Source: Emcibacter sp. (GTDB lineage Bacteria > Pseudomonadota > Alphaproteobacteria > Sphingomonadales > Emcibacteraceae). Taken from it: a stretch of 35,879 nucleotides of DNA. The notes below the pieces were generated by a model that ran no database searches, was not told where the DNA came from, and saw nothing but the letters and a program-made list of their open reading frames with translations. Positions within the stretch are counted from its first letter, which is position 1; each line of letters opens with the position of its first letter. The position numbers were made by a program, and so were the translations under genes. Shown here piece after piece: positions 3,062 to 34,770 of the stretch. The stretch covers positions 1 through 35,879 of the forward strand of contig JAESRB010000112.1 of the NCBI GenBank assembly GCA_016764855.1. Direction: 5' to 3'.

Positions 3062-3205
3062 ATGACAGATTCAACAATTTATAATGTATCGGAAGAATTT
3101 GCGAAAAATAGCCATATGGATAATGAACGTTATCTTGAGCTGTATGAGCAATCTGTGAAAGACCCTGAGGGGTTTTGGGGAGAAATGGGCAAGCGTATTG
3201 ACTGA
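3062..3205 (+). CDS. acs: N-terminal segment of acetyl-CoA synthetase (ACAS_N-like), ended by an in-frame TGA
   Basis: MTDSTIYNVSEEFAKNSHMDNERYLELYEQSVKDPEGFWGEMGKRID* in the same frame as, and directly abutting, the 601-aa acs ORF. Matches the Acs N-terminus up to the usual ...LDWIKPY motif. Not in the supplied ORF track. Confidence 0.85.
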   Translation: MTDSTIYNVSEEFAKNSHMDNERYLELYEQSVKDPEGFWGEMGKRID

Positions 3206-5011
3206 ATGAAGCCCTATACGCAGGTTAAAGACGTGTCCTTTGCCAAGGAAGATTTGCATATCAACTGGTATGCGGACGGGACATTAAACGCCAGCGTCAA
3301 CTGTATTGACCGTCATTTGCCGGAACGTGCGAATCAAACGGCGATTATTTTTGAGGGGGATGATCCGTCGTCTTCTTTGAAAATCACTTATCAAACGCTT
3401 TATGAGAAAACATGTCGTTTCGCCAATGTATTGAAATCCCGTGGTGTTAAAAAAGGCGACCGGGTAACAATATACATGCCGATGATTCAGCAAGCGGTCT
3501 ATGCCATGCTGGCCTGCGCCCGTATTGGAGCGGTACATTCCGTTGTTTTCGGTGGTTTTTCGCCAGAGGCTCTGGCCGGTCGGATTAAAGACTGCGGCAG
3601 CCATGTGGTGATCACGGCGGATGAGGGTATTCGCGGTGGCCGGGCTGTTCCTCTTAAAACCAATGTAGATATGGCTCTTGCAGAACATAATGGTGATATG
3701 GAAGTGCATACCGTTGTTGTGGTACGCCATTCCGGAGCCAAGGTTCCTATGGAGGAAGGCCGTGATATCTGGTATCAGGATGAAGCAGAAAAACAGCCTG
3801 CGGAATGTACGCCAGAGGAAATGAATGCGGAAGATCCGTTGTTCATTCTTTATACGTCTGGTTCTACCGGACAGCCCAAGGGCGTTCTGCATACCACAGG
3901 CGGATATATGGTTTATGCCAGTCTGACTCATGAGCTGGTATTTGATTATAAAGACGGCGAGGTCTATTGGTGTACGGCCGATGTGGGCTGGGTTGCGGGG
4001 CATAGCTATATCGTATACGGGCCGTTGGCCAATGGGGCGACAACGCTGGTCTTCGAAGGCATTCCCACCTATCCCGATGCGTCACGTTTCTGGCAGATAT
4101 GTGATAAGCATCAGGTTAATATTTTTTATACGGCGCCAACGGCTTTGCGGGCTTTGATGCGGTCCGGGGATGATTATGTCAATTCCTGTGACCTGTCGTC
4201 TCTGCGGTTGTTAGGCTCAGTGGGGGAACCCATTAATCCAGAAGCCTGGAATTGGTATCATACGGTGATTGGTAAAGGTAAATGCCCGATAGTGGACACT
4301 TGGTGGCAAACGGAAACCGGAGGTATTATGATCACACCTCTGCCGGGCGCGACAGCATTGAAACCGGGGTCAGCCACGCGGCCTTTCTTTGGGGTTCAGT
4401 TGGAATTGGTTGATGGCGATGGTAAAGTTCTTGAAGGCGTAGCAGAAGGTAATCTGGTGATTACGGACAGTTGGCCGGGACAAATGCGGTCCGTTTACGG
4501 TGACCATGAACGTTTTATTCTGACGTATTTTTCCACCTATGAAGGTAAATATTTTACTGGAGATGGGTGTCGTCGGGATGAAGATGGTTATTACTGGATC
4601 ACAGGCCGGGTGGATGATGTGATCAATGTGTCGGGTCACCGTATGGGCACAGCCGAAGTGGAAAGCGCGTTGGTTTCCCATGATCTTGTCGCGGAAGCCG
4701 CCGTTGTGGGCTATCCGCATGATATTAAAGGGCAGGGCATATATGCCTATGTGACTTTGATGGCGGAAATTGAGGGCTCAGATGATTTGCGTCAGGACTT
4801 AAAGAAATGGGTGCGCCGGGAAATTGGTCCTATTGCCACACCGGATAAAATTCAATTTGCGCCGGGCCTGCCGAAAACCCGATCTGGTAAGATCATGCGT
4901 CGTATCCTGCGTAAAGTTGCGGCGAATGAACATGAAAACCTTGGCGATATATCAACTCTTGCTGATCCGTCTGTTGTTGAGGATATCATCCAAAACCGCA
5001 AAAATAAGTAA
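3206..5011 (+). CDS. acs: Acetate--CoA ligase (acetyl-CoA synthetase), main portion
   Basis: 601 aa with Acs motifs: [74 protein letters not shown]. Confidence 0.95.
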
Positions 5012-5196: not shown

Positions 5197-5859
5197 ATGC
5201 TGGGGCGGAAAGTATTAATCACTGATGATCATCCATTATTCAGATCGGCGTTGCGACAAGCTGTAAAAAGAGTGGCCCCGGATGCGGACATTCTGGAGGT
5301 TAGTAGCCTTGCCGAGGCACAGAATAGTCTGTCTTTGGAACCGGATATTAAATTGGTGCTCTTGGATATTCATATGTCCGATAGCCATGGTTTTTCCGGG
5401 TTGATAATAATCCGCAAGGAATTTCCTCTATTGCCGGTTATTGTTGTTTCAGCCAGTGAAGAAATCTCAATCATTCAAAAGTCCATGAAATATGGGGCCT
5501 CCGGCTTTATTCCAAAGTCATCCGATTTGTCGGTTATTGGAGAGGCAATTGAAAGTGTTTTTAAGGGTGATCTGTGGTTGCCCGAGGGCGCGGCAGAGAA
5601 ATTTACCGATAGTAATGACCCGGACAAGGAAAAGTCGCAGCGACTTGCCAGTCTGACACCAGCTCAGTTCAAGGTATTAATGGGGCTGACCGATGGGTTG
5701 TTAAATAAACAAATCGCTTATAATATGGATATTTCCGAAGCGACGGTAAAGGCACATGTCACGGCAATTTTTAGAAAATTGAATGTGAATACACGCACTC
5801 AGGCGGTTATTTTTGCTCGCTCTCTTAAGCTAGAGACAGATAGAATAGAAGAAGAATAA
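5197..5859 (+). CDS. LuxR/NarL-family response regulator, CrbR-like
   Basis: N-terminal REC (VLITDDHPLFRSALRQAV, LVLLDIHMSD) and C-terminal HTH (LTPAQFKVLMGLTDGLLNKQIAYNMDISEATVKAHVTAIFRKLNVNTRTQAV). Located beside acs and a CrbS-like kinase. Confidence 0.9.
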   Translation: MLGRKVLITDDHPLFRSALRQAVKRVAPDADILEVSSLAEAQNSLSLEPDIKLVLLDIHMSDSHGFSGLIIIRKEFPLLPVIVVSASEEISIIQKSMKYGASGFIPKSSDLSVIGEAIESVFKGDLWLPEGAAEKFTDSNDPDKEKSQRLASLTPAQFKVLMGLTDGLLNKQIAYNMDISEATVKAHVTAIFRKLNVNTRTQAVIFARSLKLETDRIEEE

Positions 5860-5893: not shown

Positions 5894-8800
5894 TCAGGTT
5901 TTTTCCATGTTTAATAAGGCTGCCCGCAGGGTGGCAGGCTCCACGGGTTTCTGAATATGCCGAAAACCGGCATGTAGTATTTTATCTTTCACATCTGACG
6001 ACCTATCTGCAGTAATGATGTAGCCGATAAAACTATCCCCTAATTTTTCACGCATTTTTATGAGCAAGTCTAATCCGGTTTCGGGCGTGTCCAATTGGTA
6101 ATCGGCGAATATAATATCCGGGCTGCGTTCTGTTTCGGCAAGCCTTTGCAAGGCTTCGGGGTAATCCGTAGCCGTCATGACATGGCAATTCCATCTGGTG
6201 AGAAGCTTTTTCATACCGTCCAATATGGTGCGTTCATTATCAACACAAAGAACAGAAAGGTCTTTATTGGGTTTTATTATGGATATGGAGGGGGATACAC
6301 TTTGTTTTTTTGGTTCTTTTTTACTTAATGGAACTGTCACGCGGAAGACGGACCCTTTGCCCATTATGGAGTTCACAGATATCGTATGGTCCAGAATTTT
6401 GATAATGCGTTCTGTAATGGCAAGGCCGAGCCCCAATCCTTTGTCATTGCCGGTATAGCCGTTGTTCAGACGTTTGAATTCCTGAAATATTTCTTCGTAT
6501 TTGTCCTCTTCAATACCGCTGCCTGTATCCCATACCTCAATGACGAGATGTTTTCCCTGTAAACGTGTCCCCATTAATACTCGGCCTTTTTCCGTATATC
6601 GGAGAGCATTGGAGACTAGGTTTTGCAAAACGCTGTGTAATAGTCCCTTGTCGCTGGAAATAACAGCGGAGCATGGAACTTGCCGAAATTCTAGCCCGGA
6701 TTCCTTTGCGATGGCTGAAAACTCCACATTCAGCGCATTGAATAAACTTTGTATCGGGAAATCTACGATTTCTGAAATTGTCCCGCCCGCATCCAGTTTA
6801 GAGATATCAAGCAGGGCATTTAACAGCCTTTCCGATGATTTCAGGGACTGGGAAATATTCCTTACGACATCATAGGTTTCTTGATCCTGATCGGCCAAAT
6901 CCTCCTCCAGAACAGCGGCAAATAATCGGGCAGCATTCAAGGGCTGTAAAAGATCATGACTGGCGGCAGCAAGGAAGCGGGTTTTGCTTTGTGTTGCATC
7001 CTCAGCCAGTTGTTTTGCTTCTCGCAATTCTTCTTCGATTTGGGCGCGGGCTTTGATTTCCGCATGAAGGTTGGCATTTAATTGAGAAAGTTCTTCTGTA
7101 CGGTTTTTGACCCGGCCTTCCAAATTCTCATTGGTGTCTTTCAGAGCAAGTTCGGCCTTTCGGCGGTCGGTAATATCCTGATACAGGGCAAAGAAACCCT
7201 GTGTGATATTATGCTCATCCTTTTGCGGGATATAGGAAACCTGAGTATATCTTATGCCCAGTCCTTTTTGGTATATTTCCAGATCAAAAAGTTGTTTCTT
7301 TCCGGCGAGAACACCCTTTATATAAGGTTCTCTTAGGGTATAATCTTCGTGTCCCAATACATCATGAATATGTTTGCCAATAATATTATTATTGTCAGGG
7401 TTATAAAGGGCGTGATATGCTTTATTGGCAAACCTCAGGCGGTAATCCTTATCCGTATAGGCAATCACTTCAGGAACATTGTCGGTATAAAAACGCATAT
7501 TTTCTTCATTTTGACGAAGCGCATTTTCAATACGTTTTAATTCGGTAATATCAGTAAAGCTGATCACAGTTCCGCCGCCGGGCATGGGGTTTGAGATAAC
7601 CTGTACCACCTGATCATTGGGGCGGAAACGAATGGAACTGCGGGGGCGGCGTTTGCGCCAATCTACTTTGCGGCGGGCGAGGACCGCATCCACATCTGCG
7701 CTGCCATATTCGCCTTGTTTGGCATTAAACCGGACCAAGTCCTCGACTGGGCGGCCCACATAAAGAAAGTCTTCCGGGTATCCAAACATCTCGATATATT
7801 TTTTGTTCCAGGCAATGATATTAATATTGGCATCAAATACAAAGATAGCCTGACCGACATTCCCCAAAGTCGATTGTAATATTTCCCTATTAAAATCAAG
7901 CTCTTCCGAGGCATCGTTGAGGAGTTTTATCACATCCTCAATCTGAAAATTTGTACCTTTCAGGGTCGAGGCCATTAAACGGTGAGATGCAGAGGAGCCA
8001 ATGGCGCGGGCAATCAACCCCTCTACATGATGAACAAATTGTGCGTTAATTTTATCAGATACTTTTAGGTCGTTCCCTGTGGTCAGGTTAAAATTCTTGA
8101 TCAGGTTCTTCCCGGCATAGGCACCCAGAACTTTTATGACCAGATGCCTTAATATACGGGCCGTTACAATGTTATCGGATTTAACCATGTCACTATGCTG
8201 GATCGGTTTGGTATTCTCATCGACAAAAGCTCTGGCCTGAATTTTGTCCAATATGGTTGGCGTTTCTTTCAGGGAGAAGTAAATATAACAGCTTACATTA
8301 GCCAAAAGGCTATAGACGACGCCGTGGGTTAAAGGGTCCATTGCCGTAATGCCGAACAAGGCCTCTGGTTTTAGCCATAAAATACCGAAAGGGCCATTTT
8401 CGATGAACAGTTCGTTTATCCAACCAATGCCCTTCATACTGGGTAGTAGGAGCGTATAAAACCATATGGCGTAGCCACTGCTGATGCCATATATAACGCC
8501 TTTTTTGTGGCCTTTGCGCCAGAGAACGGCACCAATGACCGCTGGTATAAACTGGCTGGCGGCGACAAAAGATATGAGCCCAATATTGGCTAGAGCATCA
8601 TCCGATGATGTGCGGAAGTAGGCATAGGCAAGTAACATCAACAAAATAATAGCCACGCGCCGGACAAATAAAAGGGCCTTGCTGAAATTTTGTTCTTCCA
8701 GATTTATCAGGTTGTATTTAAATAGTAATGGCATGACGATGTCGTTGCAAATCATCGTACTCAGAGAGATGCAGGCCACAATCACCATGCCGGTAGCTGC

Positions 8801-9829
8801 CGAAAAACCGCCTAAATAGATGAAGACAGCCAGAGCTTTATTGTCAAATATGATGGGTAGACCTAAAACATAATAATCAGGATTTTGGATTGTTCCGGAT
8901 AGTAATTCAATCCCACCAACCACTGTGGGAATAAAAACCAGACTGATCAAAATCAAATAGAGTGAAAATATCCATCGGGCCATTTTTACATCATTTGGGT
9001 CATTATTTTCCACAACGGTTACATGGAACTGTCGCGGTAAACATATGATCGCGGCCATGCTAAGGAATAAGATGGTGAAGAAGCGGGTGTTTAATTGATC
9101 AGAGGTAAAGAGGTTCTGGGATTGGTTCAATTGGTCAAGGCGGCTCAACAGATCCCCGATCCCATCCATCAGGTAAAAGGTGACAAAAATACCAACAGCC
9201 ATTAGGGCGACAAGTTTAATGATAGCTTCAAAAGCTATGGCCTGAATTAAGCCGCGATGATGTTCTGTGGCATCAATATGCCGGGTGCCAAACATGATTG
9301 AAAAGAAGGCCAGCATAATGGCAATGAGGAAAGTCTGGTTGTTTGATGATGTTGTGAGCGTAGAGAAAAGTTCGATCTCGGTTGAATCAGCCATGATTTG
9401 AAAAGTGGTGGCAATGGATTTTAACTGTAACGCGATATAGGGTAAAGAGCCTATCACGGCCAGACAGGCGACCATCATCGCCAAATTTTGGCTTTTGCCA
9501 TATCGGGAAGAAATAAAGTCAGCGATAGAGGAGGAATGTTGATTTTGTCCGGCCACCACCAGCCGTCTGATCAATTTATGACCAAAAAGAAAGACAAGAA
9601 TGGGGCCAAGATAAATGGCAAGGAAGCTGAGACCTTGTGATATTGCGGTTCCGGTCGCTCCGTAATATGTCCAGGAAGAGCAATATACGGCCAGTGATAA
9701 ACTATAAACCAAAGCCCGGATAAAGGGAGCTTGAGCCTTATTTCTGTTCCGGTCACCCCACCATGCCACAAGGAATAAGGCGCCCATATACCCCAGAGAG
9801 ATAAGAATGATCAACCAGCCGTGTAACAT
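5894..9829 (-). CDS. Hybrid sensor histidine kinase with sodium:solute-symporter N-terminus, PAS domains, HisKA/HATPase and REC (CrbS-like)
   Basis: 1311 aa: multi-TM SSS-like N-terminus, PAS segments (GQAIFVFDANINIIAWNKKYIEMFGY; PEVIAYTDKDYRLRFANKAYHALYN), H-box AAASHDLLQPLNAARLF, GLGLGLAITERI, and terminal REC VLCVDNERTILDGMKKLL...FADYQLD...KPV. Confidence 0.92.
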   Translation of the reverse strand: MLHGWLIILISLGYMGALFLVAWWGDRNRNKAQAPFIRALVYSLSLAVYCSSWTYYGATGTAISQGLSFLAIYLGPILVFLFGHKLIRRLVVAGQNQHSSSIADFISSRYGKSQNLAMMVACLAVIGSLPYIALQLKSIATTFQIMADSTEIELFSTLTTSSNNQTFLIAIMLAFFSIMFGTRHIDATEHHRGLIQAIAFEAIIKLVALMAVGIFVTFYLMDGIGDLLSRLDQLNQSQNLFTSDQLNTRFFTILFLSMAAIICLPRQFHVTVVENNDPNDVKMARWIFSLYLILISLVFIPTVVGGIELLSGTIQNPDYYVLGLPIIFDNKALAVFIYLGGFSAATGMVIVACISLSTMICNDIVMPLLFKYNLINLEEQNFSKALLFVRRVAIILLMLLAYAYFRTSSDDALANIGLISFVAASQFIPAVIGAVLWRKGHKKGVIYGISSGYAIWFYTLLLPSMKGIGWINELFIENGPFGILWLKPEALFGITAMDPLTHGVVYSLLANVSCYIYFSLKETPTILDKIQARAFVDENTKPIQHSDMVKSDNIVTARILRHLVIKVLGAYAGKNLIKNFNLTTGNDLKVSDKINAQFVHHVEGLIARAIGSSASHRLMASTLKGTNFQIEDVIKLLNDASEELDFNREILQSTLGNVGQAIFVFDANINIIAWNKKYIEMFGYPEDFLYVGRPVEDLVRFNAKQGEYGSADVDAVLARRKVDWRKRRPRSSIRFRPNDQVVQVISNPMPGGGTVISFTDITELKRIENALRQNEENMRFYTDNVPEVIAYTDKDYRLRFANKAYHALYNPDNNNIIGKHIHDVLGHEDYTLREPYIKGVLAGKKQLFDLEIYQKGLGIRYTQVSYIPQKDEHNITQGFFALYQDITDRRKAELALKDTNENLEGRVKNRTEELSQLNANLHAEIKARAQIEEELREAKQLAEDATQSKTRFLAAASHDLLQPLNAARLFAAVLEEDLADQDQETYDVVRNISQSLKSSERLLNALLDISKLDAGGTISEIVDFPIQSLFNALNVEFSAIAKESGLEFRQVPCSAVISSDKGLLHSVLQNLVSNALRYTEKGRVLMGTRLQGKHLVIEVWDTGSGIEEDKYEEIFQEFKRLNNGYTGNDKGLGLGLAITERIIKILDHTISVNSIMGKGSVFRVTVPLSKKEPKKQSVSPSISIIKPNKDLSVLCVDNERTILDGMKKLLTRWNCHVMTATDYPEALQRLAETERSPDIIFADYQLDTPETGLDLLIKMREKLGDSFIGYIITADRSSDVKDKILHAGFRHIQKPVEPATLRAALLNMEKT

Positions 9830-10204: not shown

Positions 10205-11989
10205 TTAATGGGAAAGGTGATGATGATAGGAGGCACCGGCACCTTTTGGAATACGGATACTTTCTACCATATCCTGAACGTCTTGTGGTGGAGGGGCAGT
10301 CACTCGACTGACACCATACGCCACGACAAAGTTCATGAGCATGCCCAAGGTTCCAATGCCTTCGGGGGAGATGCCAAGCAGCCAATGAGCCGCATTGTTA
10401 TCACCGGGGTTAATGAACTTGAAGTAAATGATATAAGTCGAAGTGAACAGTATCCCCGTAATCATACCTGCAATAGCACCCTCTTTATTCATCCGTTTGG
10501 AGAAAATTCCCATAATGATGATCGGGAAGAAAGAAGAGGCGGCAAGGCCAAAGGCAAAGGCCACAACCTGGGCAACAAATCCGGGTGGATTTATGCCGAA
10601 ATATCCGGCAATGCAGATGGCAATTGCCGCTGCCATACGGGCAAACATCAATTCCTGTTTATCCGAAATGTTGGGGAGCAATATCTTCTTGAATAAATCA
10701 TGAGATATTGAGGTGGAGATCACCAATAACAGGCCGGCGGCCGTGGATAGCGCTGCGGCCAAACCACCTGCTGCCACCAAAGCAATTACCCAATTGGGCA
10801 ATCCTGCAATTTCGGGGTTGGCCAGCACGATGATGTCTCTGTCAATATACAATTCATTGACGCCGTCAGTTATCTTGTTGTGTAATAAACGTTCGCCATG
10901 GGCACCCCGGTTTTCAGAGAAAAGGGGTTTGCCTTCAAAGACTTTTCCTTTGACATATTGGATCTTGCCATCGTTATTCTTATCAACCCAAGCGATCAGA
11001 TTGCTGTCTTCCCAGTTTTTGAACCATTCCGGGGTTGCGGTATATTCTGCATTGCTCACGGTGTTGATCAAATTCACTCTGGCAAAAGACGCAATGGCCG
11101 GTGCCGTTGTATAAAGAATTGCAATGAGAACAAGAGCATAACCCGCAGAAATACGTGCATCCCGTACTTTTGGTACAGTAAAGAAGCGAATGATCACATG
11201 GGGTAGTCCAGCGGTTCCAACCATAAGGGCGGCAGTGATAAAGAAGATATCAATTGTTGATTTCGTCCCGTCCGTATAGGTGCCAAAGCCTAATTCCTGG
11301 CTTAATCCATCTAGCCTATCAAGGAGATAAACGCCGGAACCATCATTTAATACACTGCCAAAGCCTAATTGTGGAATGGGATTGTCAGTCATTAAAATTG
11401 AGATGAATATTGCCGGAACCATAAAGGCAAAGATCAGCACGCAATATTGCGCAACCTGTGTATAGGTAATGCCTTTCATTCCACCTAGAACAGCATAGAA
11501 GAAGACAACTGTCATACCGATCATAACGCCTATTTCAATCTCTACTTCCAGAAAGCGTGAGAAAACAATGCCTACGCCGCGCATTTGTCCCGCCACATAG
11601 GTAAAGGATATAAAGATAGCGCAGACCACCGCAACCAAACGTGCCGTATCGGAATAATAGCGGTCACCGACAAAATCAGGTACGGTAAATTTCCCGAATT
11701 TTCTGAGGTAAGGTGCCAGTAAAAGGGCAAGCAATACGTAACCACCTGTCCAGCCCATCAAATACATGCCGCCGTCACGGCCCATAAAGGAAATTAAGCC
11801 AGCCATGGAAATAAATGATGCGGCGGACATCCAGTCGGCCGCTGTGGCCATGCCGTTGGCAAGAGGATGAACATCCCCACCCGCAACATAGAATTCAGCA
11901 GTTGATCCCGCTCTCGCCCAAATAGCAATCCCGATATAAAGCGTGAATGTTAGGCCAACGATGATATAGGTTAATGTTTGTACGTCCAT
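10205..11989 (-). CDS. Sodium:solute (cation/acetate) symporter, ActP-like
   Basis: 594 aa SSS-family: WARAGSTAEFYVAGGDVHPLANGMATAADWMSAASFISMAGLISFMGRDGG; adjacent DUF4212 gene. Confidence 0.9.
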   Translation of the reverse strand: MDVQTLTYIIVGLTFTLYIGIAIWARAGSTAEFYVAGGDVHPLANGMATAADWMSAASFISMAGLISFMGRDGGMYLMGWTGGYVLLALLLAPYLRKFGKFTVPDFVGDRYYSDTARLVAVVCAIFISFTYVAGQMRGVGIVFSRFLEVEIEIGVMIGMTVVFFYAVLGGMKGITYTQVAQYCVLIFAFMVPAIFISILMTDNPIPQLGFGSVLNDGSGVYLLDRLDGLSQELGFGTYTDGTKSTIDIFFITAALMVGTAGLPHVIIRFFTVPKVRDARISAGYALVLIAILYTTAPAIASFARVNLINTVSNAEYTATPEWFKNWEDSNLIAWVDKNNDGKIQYVKGKVFEGKPLFSENRGAHGERLLHNKITDGVNELYIDRDIIVLANPEIAGLPNWVIALVAAGGLAAALSTAAGLLLVISTSISHDLFKKILLPNISDKQELMFARMAAAIAICIAGYFGINPPGFVAQVVAFAFGLAASSFFPIIIMGIFSKRMNKEGAIAGMITGILFTSTYIIYFKFINPGDNNAAHWLLGISPEGIGTLGMLMNFVVAYGVSRVTAPPPQDVQDMVESIRIPKGAGASYHHHLSH

Positions 11990-11991
11990 AG

Positions 11992-12348
11992 TTACTCTCC
12001 CTTCTTATCGTCATGTTCGGATATGGAATCGATAAAACTTTCCTCATGATGATAATAATCTTCGTCTTCTACATAATCGTCGTCGTCTTCATCTACGCCG
12101 TATTTACGGTCCAGTTTGTTCATTTGATTGACGTAAATAAAAATGAGAATAACGAAAACATAAATAGCACCTTGCTGGGCCATCCAAAAACCAAGTTTAA
12201 ATCCGAAGAACCGGATATTATTTAACTCATCTGAGAAGAGTATCCCCATTCCAAATGAGACAATGAACCAAACGACCAGAAGGGTGAGCATCAACTTGAT
12301 GTTTTCCTTCCAATAGGCTTGGGCATTTTCTTTTTCTGAAGTGTTCAT
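11992..12348 (-). CDS. DUF4212 sodium/substrate symporter small subunit (ORF open from 12390; internal Met at 12348 preferred)
   Basis: MNTSEKENAQAYWKENIKLMLTLLVVWFIVSFGMGILFSDELNNIRFFGFKLGFWMAQQGAIYVFVILIFIYVNQMNKLDRKYGVDEDDDD, a typical DUF4212 layout with acidic C-terminus, directly upstream of the symporter. Confidence 0.88.
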   Translation of the reverse strand: MNTSEKENAQAYWKENIKLMLTLLVVWFIVSFGMGILFSDELNNIRFFGFKLGFWMAQQGAIYVFVILIFIYVNQMNKLDRKYGVDEDDDDYVEDEDYYHHEESFIDSISEHDDKKGE

Positions 12349-12699
12349 TTTAAGCCACCCTAGTGTTGTTATAAAGAAAAGGTCTGCCATTAAACACTAG
12401 CAAAGAGGTAGAGTAATTTACAGCTAACTTTAGTCTAATGTCGTCATAACCATATGTATTTAAATGATTAAATTATATAAATTAGTGACTTGTTAAATAA
12501 AGAAGGAAAATTTATACCCTTTAGGTTCAGTATGTTTATTTCCCACGCATATAGGGCTGAAACGGTATAGGACGTCTTATGTTCTGTAACATTTTACGGT
12601 GTGGAGTATGGGGGAGGTTGGCTAATTTTGGAAAATACATTCCTTAACCTCATGCTTTTTTAATATCTTGCATTGCACAATTTTTTCATTATATAGTGT

Positions 12700-12868
12700 T
12701 TTCATAAATGGTGCCCATTAAGGGGTAAAAGGGAACACGGTGTTAAAATCCGTGACTGTGCCCGCAACTGTGTTTGGTAAGTTTGGTTTTCAGATACCAC
12801 TGGAATTTCCGGGAAGGTGAAATCCGAACGTTGAGCCATAAGTCAGGAAACCTGCCATTTAGTCGCCC
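12700..12868 (+). promoter_or_regulatory. Cobalamin (AdoCbl) riboswitch
   Basis: Conserved elements in order: gggaacacggtg, aaatccgtgactgtgcccgcaactgt, taccactgg, gggaaggtg, gagccataagtcaggaaacctgcc (B12-box-like); located upstream of a BtuB-like receptor. Confidence 0.93.
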
Positions 12869-12997
12869 TTTCTGTCTGTCGGGACAATGGATCAGAGCGG
12901 AATATCCGTACAGGTGGCATTCGTTGCTTTGTGCGGAGTTTCGTCAAAAAAACTCTTCACAATTTATAGTATGTTGTATAAATGGAGGAGTAATCCT

Positions 12998-32679: not shown

Positions 32680-34770
32680 ATGATAAAAAAATACAGCGTT
32701 GGATTTTTAACAACTATTCTCGCCCTTTTCGTTGGATTTTTTAGCATATCCGGATGCTCTGAATCCAAAGAAGCCGTTAAGGTCGCCGAAGTTGTCGAGG
32801 ATGACGGAGCCGACTGGCCCAGTTTTGGCAGAACCTATAAAGAAGATCATTATAGCCCGCTGACAGAGATTAATGATCAAAACCTTGATCGTCTCGGATT
32901 GGCATGGTCATTTGATCTGCCGGTTTCTCAGAGCGGCATTAGCGCACCATTGGCGATTGATGGTGTGCTTTATTTTGCGGTTGGTCATAGCGTGATCCAT
33001 GCCATGGAAGCCACCACAGGAAAGCTGTTGTGGGAATATGACCCCAAGGTTTTTGATGTGGCAGGTAAGAAAATGCGGGCCGGCTGGGGCGTGCGCGGGA
33101 TTGCCTATTCAAAAGGTAAGATCTTTACCGCGACCCTTGATGGTCGTCTGATCGCACTTGAGGCCGCGACGGGTAAATTAATATGGTCTGCAATGACAGT
33201 TGATCCTGAGGATGGGCGCTATATTACGGGCGCACCATGGATCATGAAAGATAAAGTCATCATTGGTCATGGCGGTGCAGATTATGCGCCTATTCGAGGC
33301 TACGTCACGGCATATGATGAAAATACGGGTGAGCAGGCATGGCGTTTTTATACGGTGCCGGGTAATCCCGCGGATGGTTTCGAGAATGATGCTATGGAAA
33401 TGGCGGCGAAGACCTGGAACGGTGAATGGTGGAAATTTGGCGGTGGTGGTACTGTCTGGAATGCCATGACTTATGATGCGGAATATAACCGTATTTATAT
33501 TGGTACAGGTAACGGTGCGCCGTGGAACCAGAAAATCCGTAGCCCAGAAGGCGGCGATAATTTGTTCTTATGTTCGGTGGTAGCACTTGATGCGGATACC
33601 GGGGAATATGTCTGGCATTATCAAATTAATCCGGGCGAAACATGGGATTTCAATGCTGCTATGGATATGCAGTTGACGGACCTGACCATTGATGGCCAAC
33701 GCCGATCCGTTCTTATGACAGCCCCGAAAAACGGTTTTTTCTATGTGATTGACCGTAAAGACGGCAAACTTATTTCAGCAGAGAAATTCGCCAAGGCCAA
33801 TTGGGCAGAGCGTATTGATCTGGAAACAGGTCGTCCTGTTGAAAATCCGGCAGCACGTTATCCGGTAGGAACGGCCTATCTGATGTTCCCTTCCGCTTGG
33901 GGTGCTCATGGTGTTGAGCCCATGTCCTATAATCCCAATACAGGTTTGGTTTATCTTCCAGCGCGGGATTTGGGTAATCTCTATGCCAATGCTTCTGATC
34001 TGAAGAATTGGGATTTCAAGCCAGATATGGTTTTAAATGTGGGACTTGGTGCTGCGCCTAAGGGGCAGGGTCAAAAGGTTCCTCCTGGAAAGGGGTGGCT
34101 TGCCGCATGGAATCCTGTTGAGCAAAAAGAAGTATGGCGTGTTGATATGGGACTTAAGACCCATAATGGCGGCACCATGACCACAGCGGGTAACCTGGTG
34201 GTTCAAGGACAGGCTACGGGTGAGCTGAGTATTTATACTGCTGATACCGGTAAGAAAATCTGGTCCTTTGATGCTCAAAACGGAATTATGGCCCAGCCGA
34301 TTACCTATCTGGCCGATGGAAAACAATATATCAGCCTTCTGGTTGGTTCCCGTGCGTCATCTCATAAGGGTAATGGCAAGCCGTGGAATTATTATACCCA
34401 AAAACGTCGGCTTTTGACGTTTGCTCTGGATGCCAAAGCTGAATTGCCCCCGGTTGAGGAAATTGACCTGCCTATTCTGGACGATGCAGAATTCGTGGTT
34501 GATGATGAGAAAGCCTTGCTGGGCGTAAAGGTATTCCACAGGAATTGCTTTGTCTGTCACGGCGCACGTTTGAACTCCGGCGGGGCGGCACCTGATTTGA
34601 TCCGTTCGCTGATCCCCACAGATATCGACCTTTTGGTCGAGGTATTGAACGAGGGATCACAGAGGGAAAATGGCATGCCGCAATTCGAGGAAATGCCCAT
34701 GTCCGAGATCGAAGGCCTGCAACATTATATTCGTAAGACCGCACGTCAACGCCTGAAAAGTAAAAACTGA
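32680..34770 (+). CDS. PQQ-dependent quinohemoprotein alcohol dehydrogenase (methanol/ethanol family) with C-terminal cytochrome c domain; putative lipoprotein
   Basis: DWPSFGRTYKEDHYSPLTEINDQNLDRLGLAWSFDLP, beta-propeller repeats, WDFNAAMDMQLTDLTIDGQRRSVLMTAPKNGFFYVIDRKDGKL, heme motif CFVCH with later NGMPQF; N-terminus FFSISGCSES fits a lipobox. Confidence 0.92.
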   Translation: MIKKYSVGFLTTILALFVGFFSISGCSESKEAVKVAEVVEDDGADWPSFGRTYKEDHYSPLTEINDQNLDRLGLAWSFDLPVSQSGISAPLAIDGVLYFAVGHSVIHAMEATTGKLLWEYDPKVFDVAGKKMRAGWGVRGIAYSKGKIFTATLDGRLIALEAATGKLIWSAMTVDPEDGRYITGAPWIMKDKVIIGHGGADYAPIRGYVTAYDENTGEQAWRFYTVPGNPADGFENDAMEMAAKTWNGEWWKFGGGGTVWNAMTYDAEYNRIYIGTGNGAPWNQKIRSPEGGDNLFLCSVVALDADTGEYVWHYQINPGETWDFNAAMDMQLTDLTIDGQRRSVLMTAPKNGFFYVIDRKDGKLISAEKFAKANWAERIDLETGRPVENPAARYPVGTAYLMFPSAWGAHGVEPMSYNPNTGLVYLPARDLGNLYANASDLKNWDFKPDMVLNVGLGAAPKGQGQKVPPGKGWLAAWNPVEQKEVWRVDMGLKTHNGGTMTTAGNLVVQGQATGELSIYTADTGKKIWSFDAQNGIMAQPITYLADGKQYISLLVGSRASSHKGNGKPWNYYTQKRRLLTFALDAKAELPPVEEIDLPILDDAEFVVDDEKALLGVKVFHRNCFVCHGARLNSGGAAPDLIRSLIPTDIDLLVEVLNEGSQRENGMPQFEEMPMSEIEGLQHYIRKTARQRLKSKN

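Follow-up and report, generated by a model that had tools for sequence, protein, structure and literature searches.

The acs gene in the stretch of DNA analysed here (the window, 35,879 nt) is interrupted by a single in-frame TGA at an invariant tryptophan codon, directly followed by an in-frame ATG. This arrangement is found in one assembly only. Rather than a novel decoding mechanism, it probably reflects an error in the sequence or a nonsense mutation that is private and very recent. The window forms contig C45 of G000, a draft genome assembled from environmental DNA (metagenome-type; 3.1 Mb, 289 contigs, 78% complete). The case calls for caution: a stop codon that replaces a conserved Trp and adjoins an ATG has the look of recoding or reinitiation, but one altered base in a draft genome suffices to produce both features.

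The interrupted acs frame and its relatives

On the forward strand, the acs frame opens with the ATG at 3062, runs for 47 codons (3062..3202; MTDSTIYNVS...GEMGKRID), meets the TGA at 3203-3205 at codon 48 and proceeds, with no frameshift, from the ATG at 3206 through 601 codons to a TAA at 5009-5011. The 5' part corresponds to part of a normal Acs N-terminus and is continuous in frame with the Acs of relatives. The body (3206..5011) contains the Pfam domains AMP-binding and AMP-binding_C together with part of ACAS_N, and matches TIGR02188. Reading the TGA as Trp gives a 649-aa product that matches acetate--CoA ligase models over its full length, namely NF001208 over residues 2-648 (1089 bits) and TIGR02188 over residues 20-644 (1031 bits; cut-off 725); the 601-aa form alone scores 997 bits against the latter, also above the cut-off. 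Identity of the 649-aa product to the three closest same-genus Acs proteins is 86-89%. The initial annotation had described acs as split by an in-frame TGA at a conserved Trp with an adjoining ATG and had noted that 47 + 1 + 601 codons add up to the normal full Acs length. The frame and the alignment confirm the split, and the end-to-end model matches agree with the count. A search for a second acs, which had been proposed as a check, found no close one in this assembly (78% complete), the next best match being 33% identical.

The Acs N-terminus was aligned across genomes of the same genus, family and order as well as named alphaproteobacterial and gammaproteobacterial genomes. At the stop column, all 102 of the other comparable sequences read TGG and the window alone reads TGA, and one further row has a gap; the alignment with close relatives that had been suggested earlier thus makes the TGA private to the window. 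Trp48 is likewise invariant in a 21-sequence Acs alignment, for which the TGA of the window sequence was translated as Trp. The Salmonella Acs structure 2p2f also carries a Trp at the matching position. The codon that follows is variable (ATC 55, TTC 17, ATA 12, ATG 8 including the window, ATT 7, others 4), so that the Ile or Met expected there by the initial annotation is indeed seen, along with Phe. One member of the genus, G011, has TGG-ATG (“WM”) at the site; the TGA-ATG of the window therefore needs a single G-to-A transition and no second event. The presence of the ATG at 3206 is therefore no indication of a selected restart.

It had also been considered that homologs might ordinarily begin at MKPYTQ; this proved false, as homologs continue upstream. 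A chance coincidence of two ORFs was ruled out, since the 47 codons ahead of the stop are themselves conserved as coding sequence. Because synonymous sites are saturated, dN/dS before and after the stop gave way to ratios of amino-acid divergence. Divergence from relatives in residues 1-47 relative to the body amounts to 2.50, and the other sequences range from 1.94 to 2.98. The frame is thus under selection on both sides of the stop: by this measure, codons 1-47 show no relaxed constraint and would have been normally constrained up to the very recent past, if not to the present. At the other acs positions where G000 alone departs from an invariant residue, most replacements are conservative.

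TGA usage and the neighbouring genes

The continuous frame of acs is the sole support for an altered code in which TGA specifies Trp throughout the genome. For comparison, proteins of the same-genus genome G004 were aligned to 0.51 Mb of G000. Of the 299 codons that face a Trp of G004, 291 are TGG and only the acs codon is TGA. Among 83 conserved genes sampled throughout G000, 21 have TGA as their stop, as have 11 of the 23 genes in the window. Genes for both RF1 and RF2 are present, the latter cut by a contig end. At the start of prfB (contig C102, L158), the sequence AGGAGG-CAT-CTT-TGA-C constitutes the classic in-frame-TGA +1 frameshift site. The TGA of prfB is a stop recognised by RF2 itself, and the programmed frameshift relies on TGA being read as a stop. 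A search for tRNA-Sec returned nothing above cut-off, and the tRNA-Trp anticodon was not seen within the sampled contigs. The Trp-aligned codons, the genes ending in TGA and RF2 with its prfB site exclude a TGA-as-Trp code to near certainty; the doubt about global recoding expressed in the initial annotation, which had seen TGA as a normal stop elsewhere in the window, was well placed.

The genes next to acs are open. An intact LuxR-type response regulator resembling ErdR/CrbR lies at 5197..5859 on the forward strand (NF041830, 246 bits, below the cut-off of 390). It is followed on the reverse strand by a hybrid sensor histidine kinase (5894..9829), possibly a CrbS/MxtR partner, with PAS, HisKA, HATPase and receiver domains and a match above cut-off to NF041832 (NahK/ErcS C-terminal); no SSF domain was detected in this kinase. 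The large subunit of a VC_2705 family sodium/solute symporter (10205..11989; TIGR03648, 875 bits) and a sodium/substrate symporter small subunit (11992..12390; TIGR03647, 126 bits) complete the group, both on the reverse strand. These open neighbours speak mildly against an abandoned acetate pathway. Further along the forward strand, the window contains a cobalamin riboswitch (12692-12873, 111 bits) that precedes genes for a TonB-dependent receptor and for cobalamin synthesis, and a PQQ-dependent dehydrogenase whose C-terminus carries a cytochrome domain (32680-34770).

Lesions in related drafts and the origin of the stop

Disrupted genes were surveyed by comparing 0.51 Mb of G000 with 1.5 Mb of G004, with about 96 genes reliably comparable. 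In G000, three of these conserved genes are each clearly shifted in frame at one point by the loss of one or two bases, and a candidate fourth is less clear. In ruvB (contig C70, L141, ~4818-4911, reverse strand) one G is lost from GG, a MatE transporter has lost one base, and a Fer4/dehalogenase-like protein has lost two bases, AAAAA having become AAA as reconstructed; two of the three deletions thus shorten a run of one base, with the A-run as reconstructed. The split ruvB occurs in G000 alone among 16 genus genomes and is probably a sequence error. In the reverse test of G000 ORFs against G004, zero frameshifts were found, and the two stops encountered both fall in ORFs with no Pfam match. 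Most in-frame “stops” of the first survey turned out to be antisense ORFs or wrongly extended starts and were discarded, and an apparent disruption of RNase III was rejected as the gene is intact on checking. An AMP-binding gene on contig C211 (L183, ~5300-5600, reverse strand) contains a TAA close to a change of frame, two lesions near each other that would fit either gene decay or a poor consensus.

Broken acs genes were also encountered in other drafts. In G029 (L025), another genome of the family, acs is intact except for a lone TAA, which takes the place of Tyr282, a residue invariant across the 21 aligned sequences, and is followed by a Met codon; in G012, the acs match is split between two frames. 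Such isolated lesions, where the gene is otherwise well conserved, are characteristic of consensus errors or of mutations that arose very recently.

The favoured explanation is that acs would be an ordinary conserved gene for AMP-forming acetyl-CoA synthetase in which, in this assembly alone, one G-to-A change made a TGA of the TGG for Trp48. The change would have arisen because the consensus of a metagenome-type draft took up an error or a minority base, and the cell would make a normal 649-aa Acs with Trp48. Several observations favour this explanation: the TGA is unique to this genome; one transition accounts for both the TGA and the adjoining ATG, given the TGG-ATG of G011; G000 has other private frameshifts (ruvB included), whereas the reverse test on G004 had none; acs is broken in G029 and G012 as well; and constraint is not relaxed before the stop while the neighbouring genes are open. 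However, the remaining G000 lesions are indels and not substitutions, most private acs changes are conservative and do not point to numerous substitution errors, three frameshifts against zero is a small sample, and the AMP-binding gene on C211 could be a case of genuine decay. On balance, this explanation, with its consensus error or minority base, is given an even chance; the other G000 lesions, like the acs stop, may be sequence errors and not real.

A real and recent nonsense allele, whether rescued by reinitiation or causing loss of function, is a serious possibility at somewhat below even odds. In its rescued form, which taken singly is unlikely, a strain-private nonsense mutation would be followed by reinitiation at the ATG, with some 601-aa Acs predicted to be made beside a 47-aa peptide. 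TGA and ATG adjoin at distance 0, within coupling range; in E. coli gene pairs, a 2-nt gap lowered reinitiation by 5-70% and one of ~38 nt by 80-100% (PMC10666635). A Shine-Dalgarno-like GAGGT lies upstream of 3062, and the 601-aa form retains both catalytic Pfam domains and passes TIGR02188. Moreover, members of NF003313, a shorter acetate--CoA ligase family (574 positions), align only from about residue 54 on, so that some activity of the 601-aa form is possible. Against this, the ATG at 3206 is preceded by no Shine-Dalgarno sequence but only by a three-base AAG match, and removal of the Shine-Dalgarno reduced reinitiation in four of five E. coli pairs (PMC6728339). Neither the ATG nor the stop is conserved: ATG occupies this position in 8 of 103 rows and a stop is present in 0 of 102 relatives. 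The features of reinitiating pairs are hence divided, with a close stop and start present and a Shine-Dalgarno (frequent in such pairs, though not required) and conservation in relatives absent. In addition, the lost segment includes W39, R45, D47 and W48, all invariant in the 21-sequence alignment, and its removal cuts into Pfam ACAS_N. The canonical N-terminal domain of Cryptococcus Acs1 begins at residue 42 (PMC8383264), which corresponds to query residue 22 in an alignment to 5ifi if a 21-residue tag is assumed; under that assumption, the 601-aa form would be without about 27 residues of the domain. Fungal truncations that remained active removed only the poorly conserved extension ahead of the N-terminal domain and spared the domain itself (PMC8383264), which likewise argues against a functional 601-aa form. 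A 601-aa protein made by reinitiation is thus possible but unsupported. That the stop is real and fixed in the species, with Acs made by reinitiation after the TGA as a 601-aa protein or a 47-aa and 601-aa pair, appears improbable. With a real, fixed stop, one could test directly if the first 48 residues of Acs are required, and with reinitiation the conserved N-terminus would be dispensable or able to act in trans.

The remaining accounts of a real stop do without a restart. An early loss-of-function allele, inactivating acs in this strain, is doubtful on present evidence. The lesion is private and free of secondary decay, and other genes in the assembly are disrupted. Nevertheless, an apparently intact two-component system and symporter, which likely serve acetate use, adjoin the gene, and the assembly (78% complete) offers no second close acs; loss of acs would therefore be costly. 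Readthrough of a real TGA by a near-cognate tRNA-Trp, at a level useful for making full-length Acs, is even more remote. The missing residue is exactly Trp, the frame is intact, and in E. coli tRNA-Trp is known to read through UGA at a low level. Yet predicted RNA folding around the stop is no stronger than in shuffled sequences (z = 0.40), no other in-frame TGA at a Trp was seen among the 299 aligned positions, and the stop occurs in no relative. The initial annotation had left open a nonsense mutation, a two-piece enzyme made by reinitiation, readthrough as Trp and a sequence error. The other lesions in G000 and the acs of G029 favour the error or a recent nonsense mutation, and readthrough and the two-piece enzyme gained no positive support.

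Comparison with known systems

Once the TGA is passed, the Acs encoded in the window has the full length, domains and invariant residues of an AMP-forming acetyl-CoA synthetase (TIGR02188/NF001208; Salmonella Acs 2p2f). It differs from these enzymes by one in-frame TGA at Trp48, and the uninterrupted frame expected of AcsA is broken at 3203-3205 in this assembly only. With prfB, the gene for RF2, acs shares an in-frame TGA inside a conserved gene; however, prfB has a conserved frameshift site, which is found in this genome, whereas acs has neither a frameshift nor such a signal. Systems of termination-reinitiation coupling (PMC6728339, PMC10666635) likewise place a start directly after a stop, where reinitiation is possible. 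In contrast to coupled pairs, the stop in acs divides one protein and does not separate two genes, is accompanied by no Shine-Dalgarno and is not conserved.

The acs neighbourhood, with its regulator, hybrid kinase and two-gene VC_2705-type symporter, is like that of the CrbS/R (MxtR/ErdR) system for acetate control known from Vibrio and Pseudomonas (PMC5436829, PMC5715377). As the ErdR match is below cut-off and the kinase has no SSF domain, this is a resemblance and not membership. The stop itself is comparable to the artefacts or private lesions of draft assemblies, such as the TAA at Tyr282 in the acs of G029, in that one isolated lesion affects a conserved gene in one assembly; it stands apart from such lesions in that it happens to fall at a Trp codon and before an ATG.
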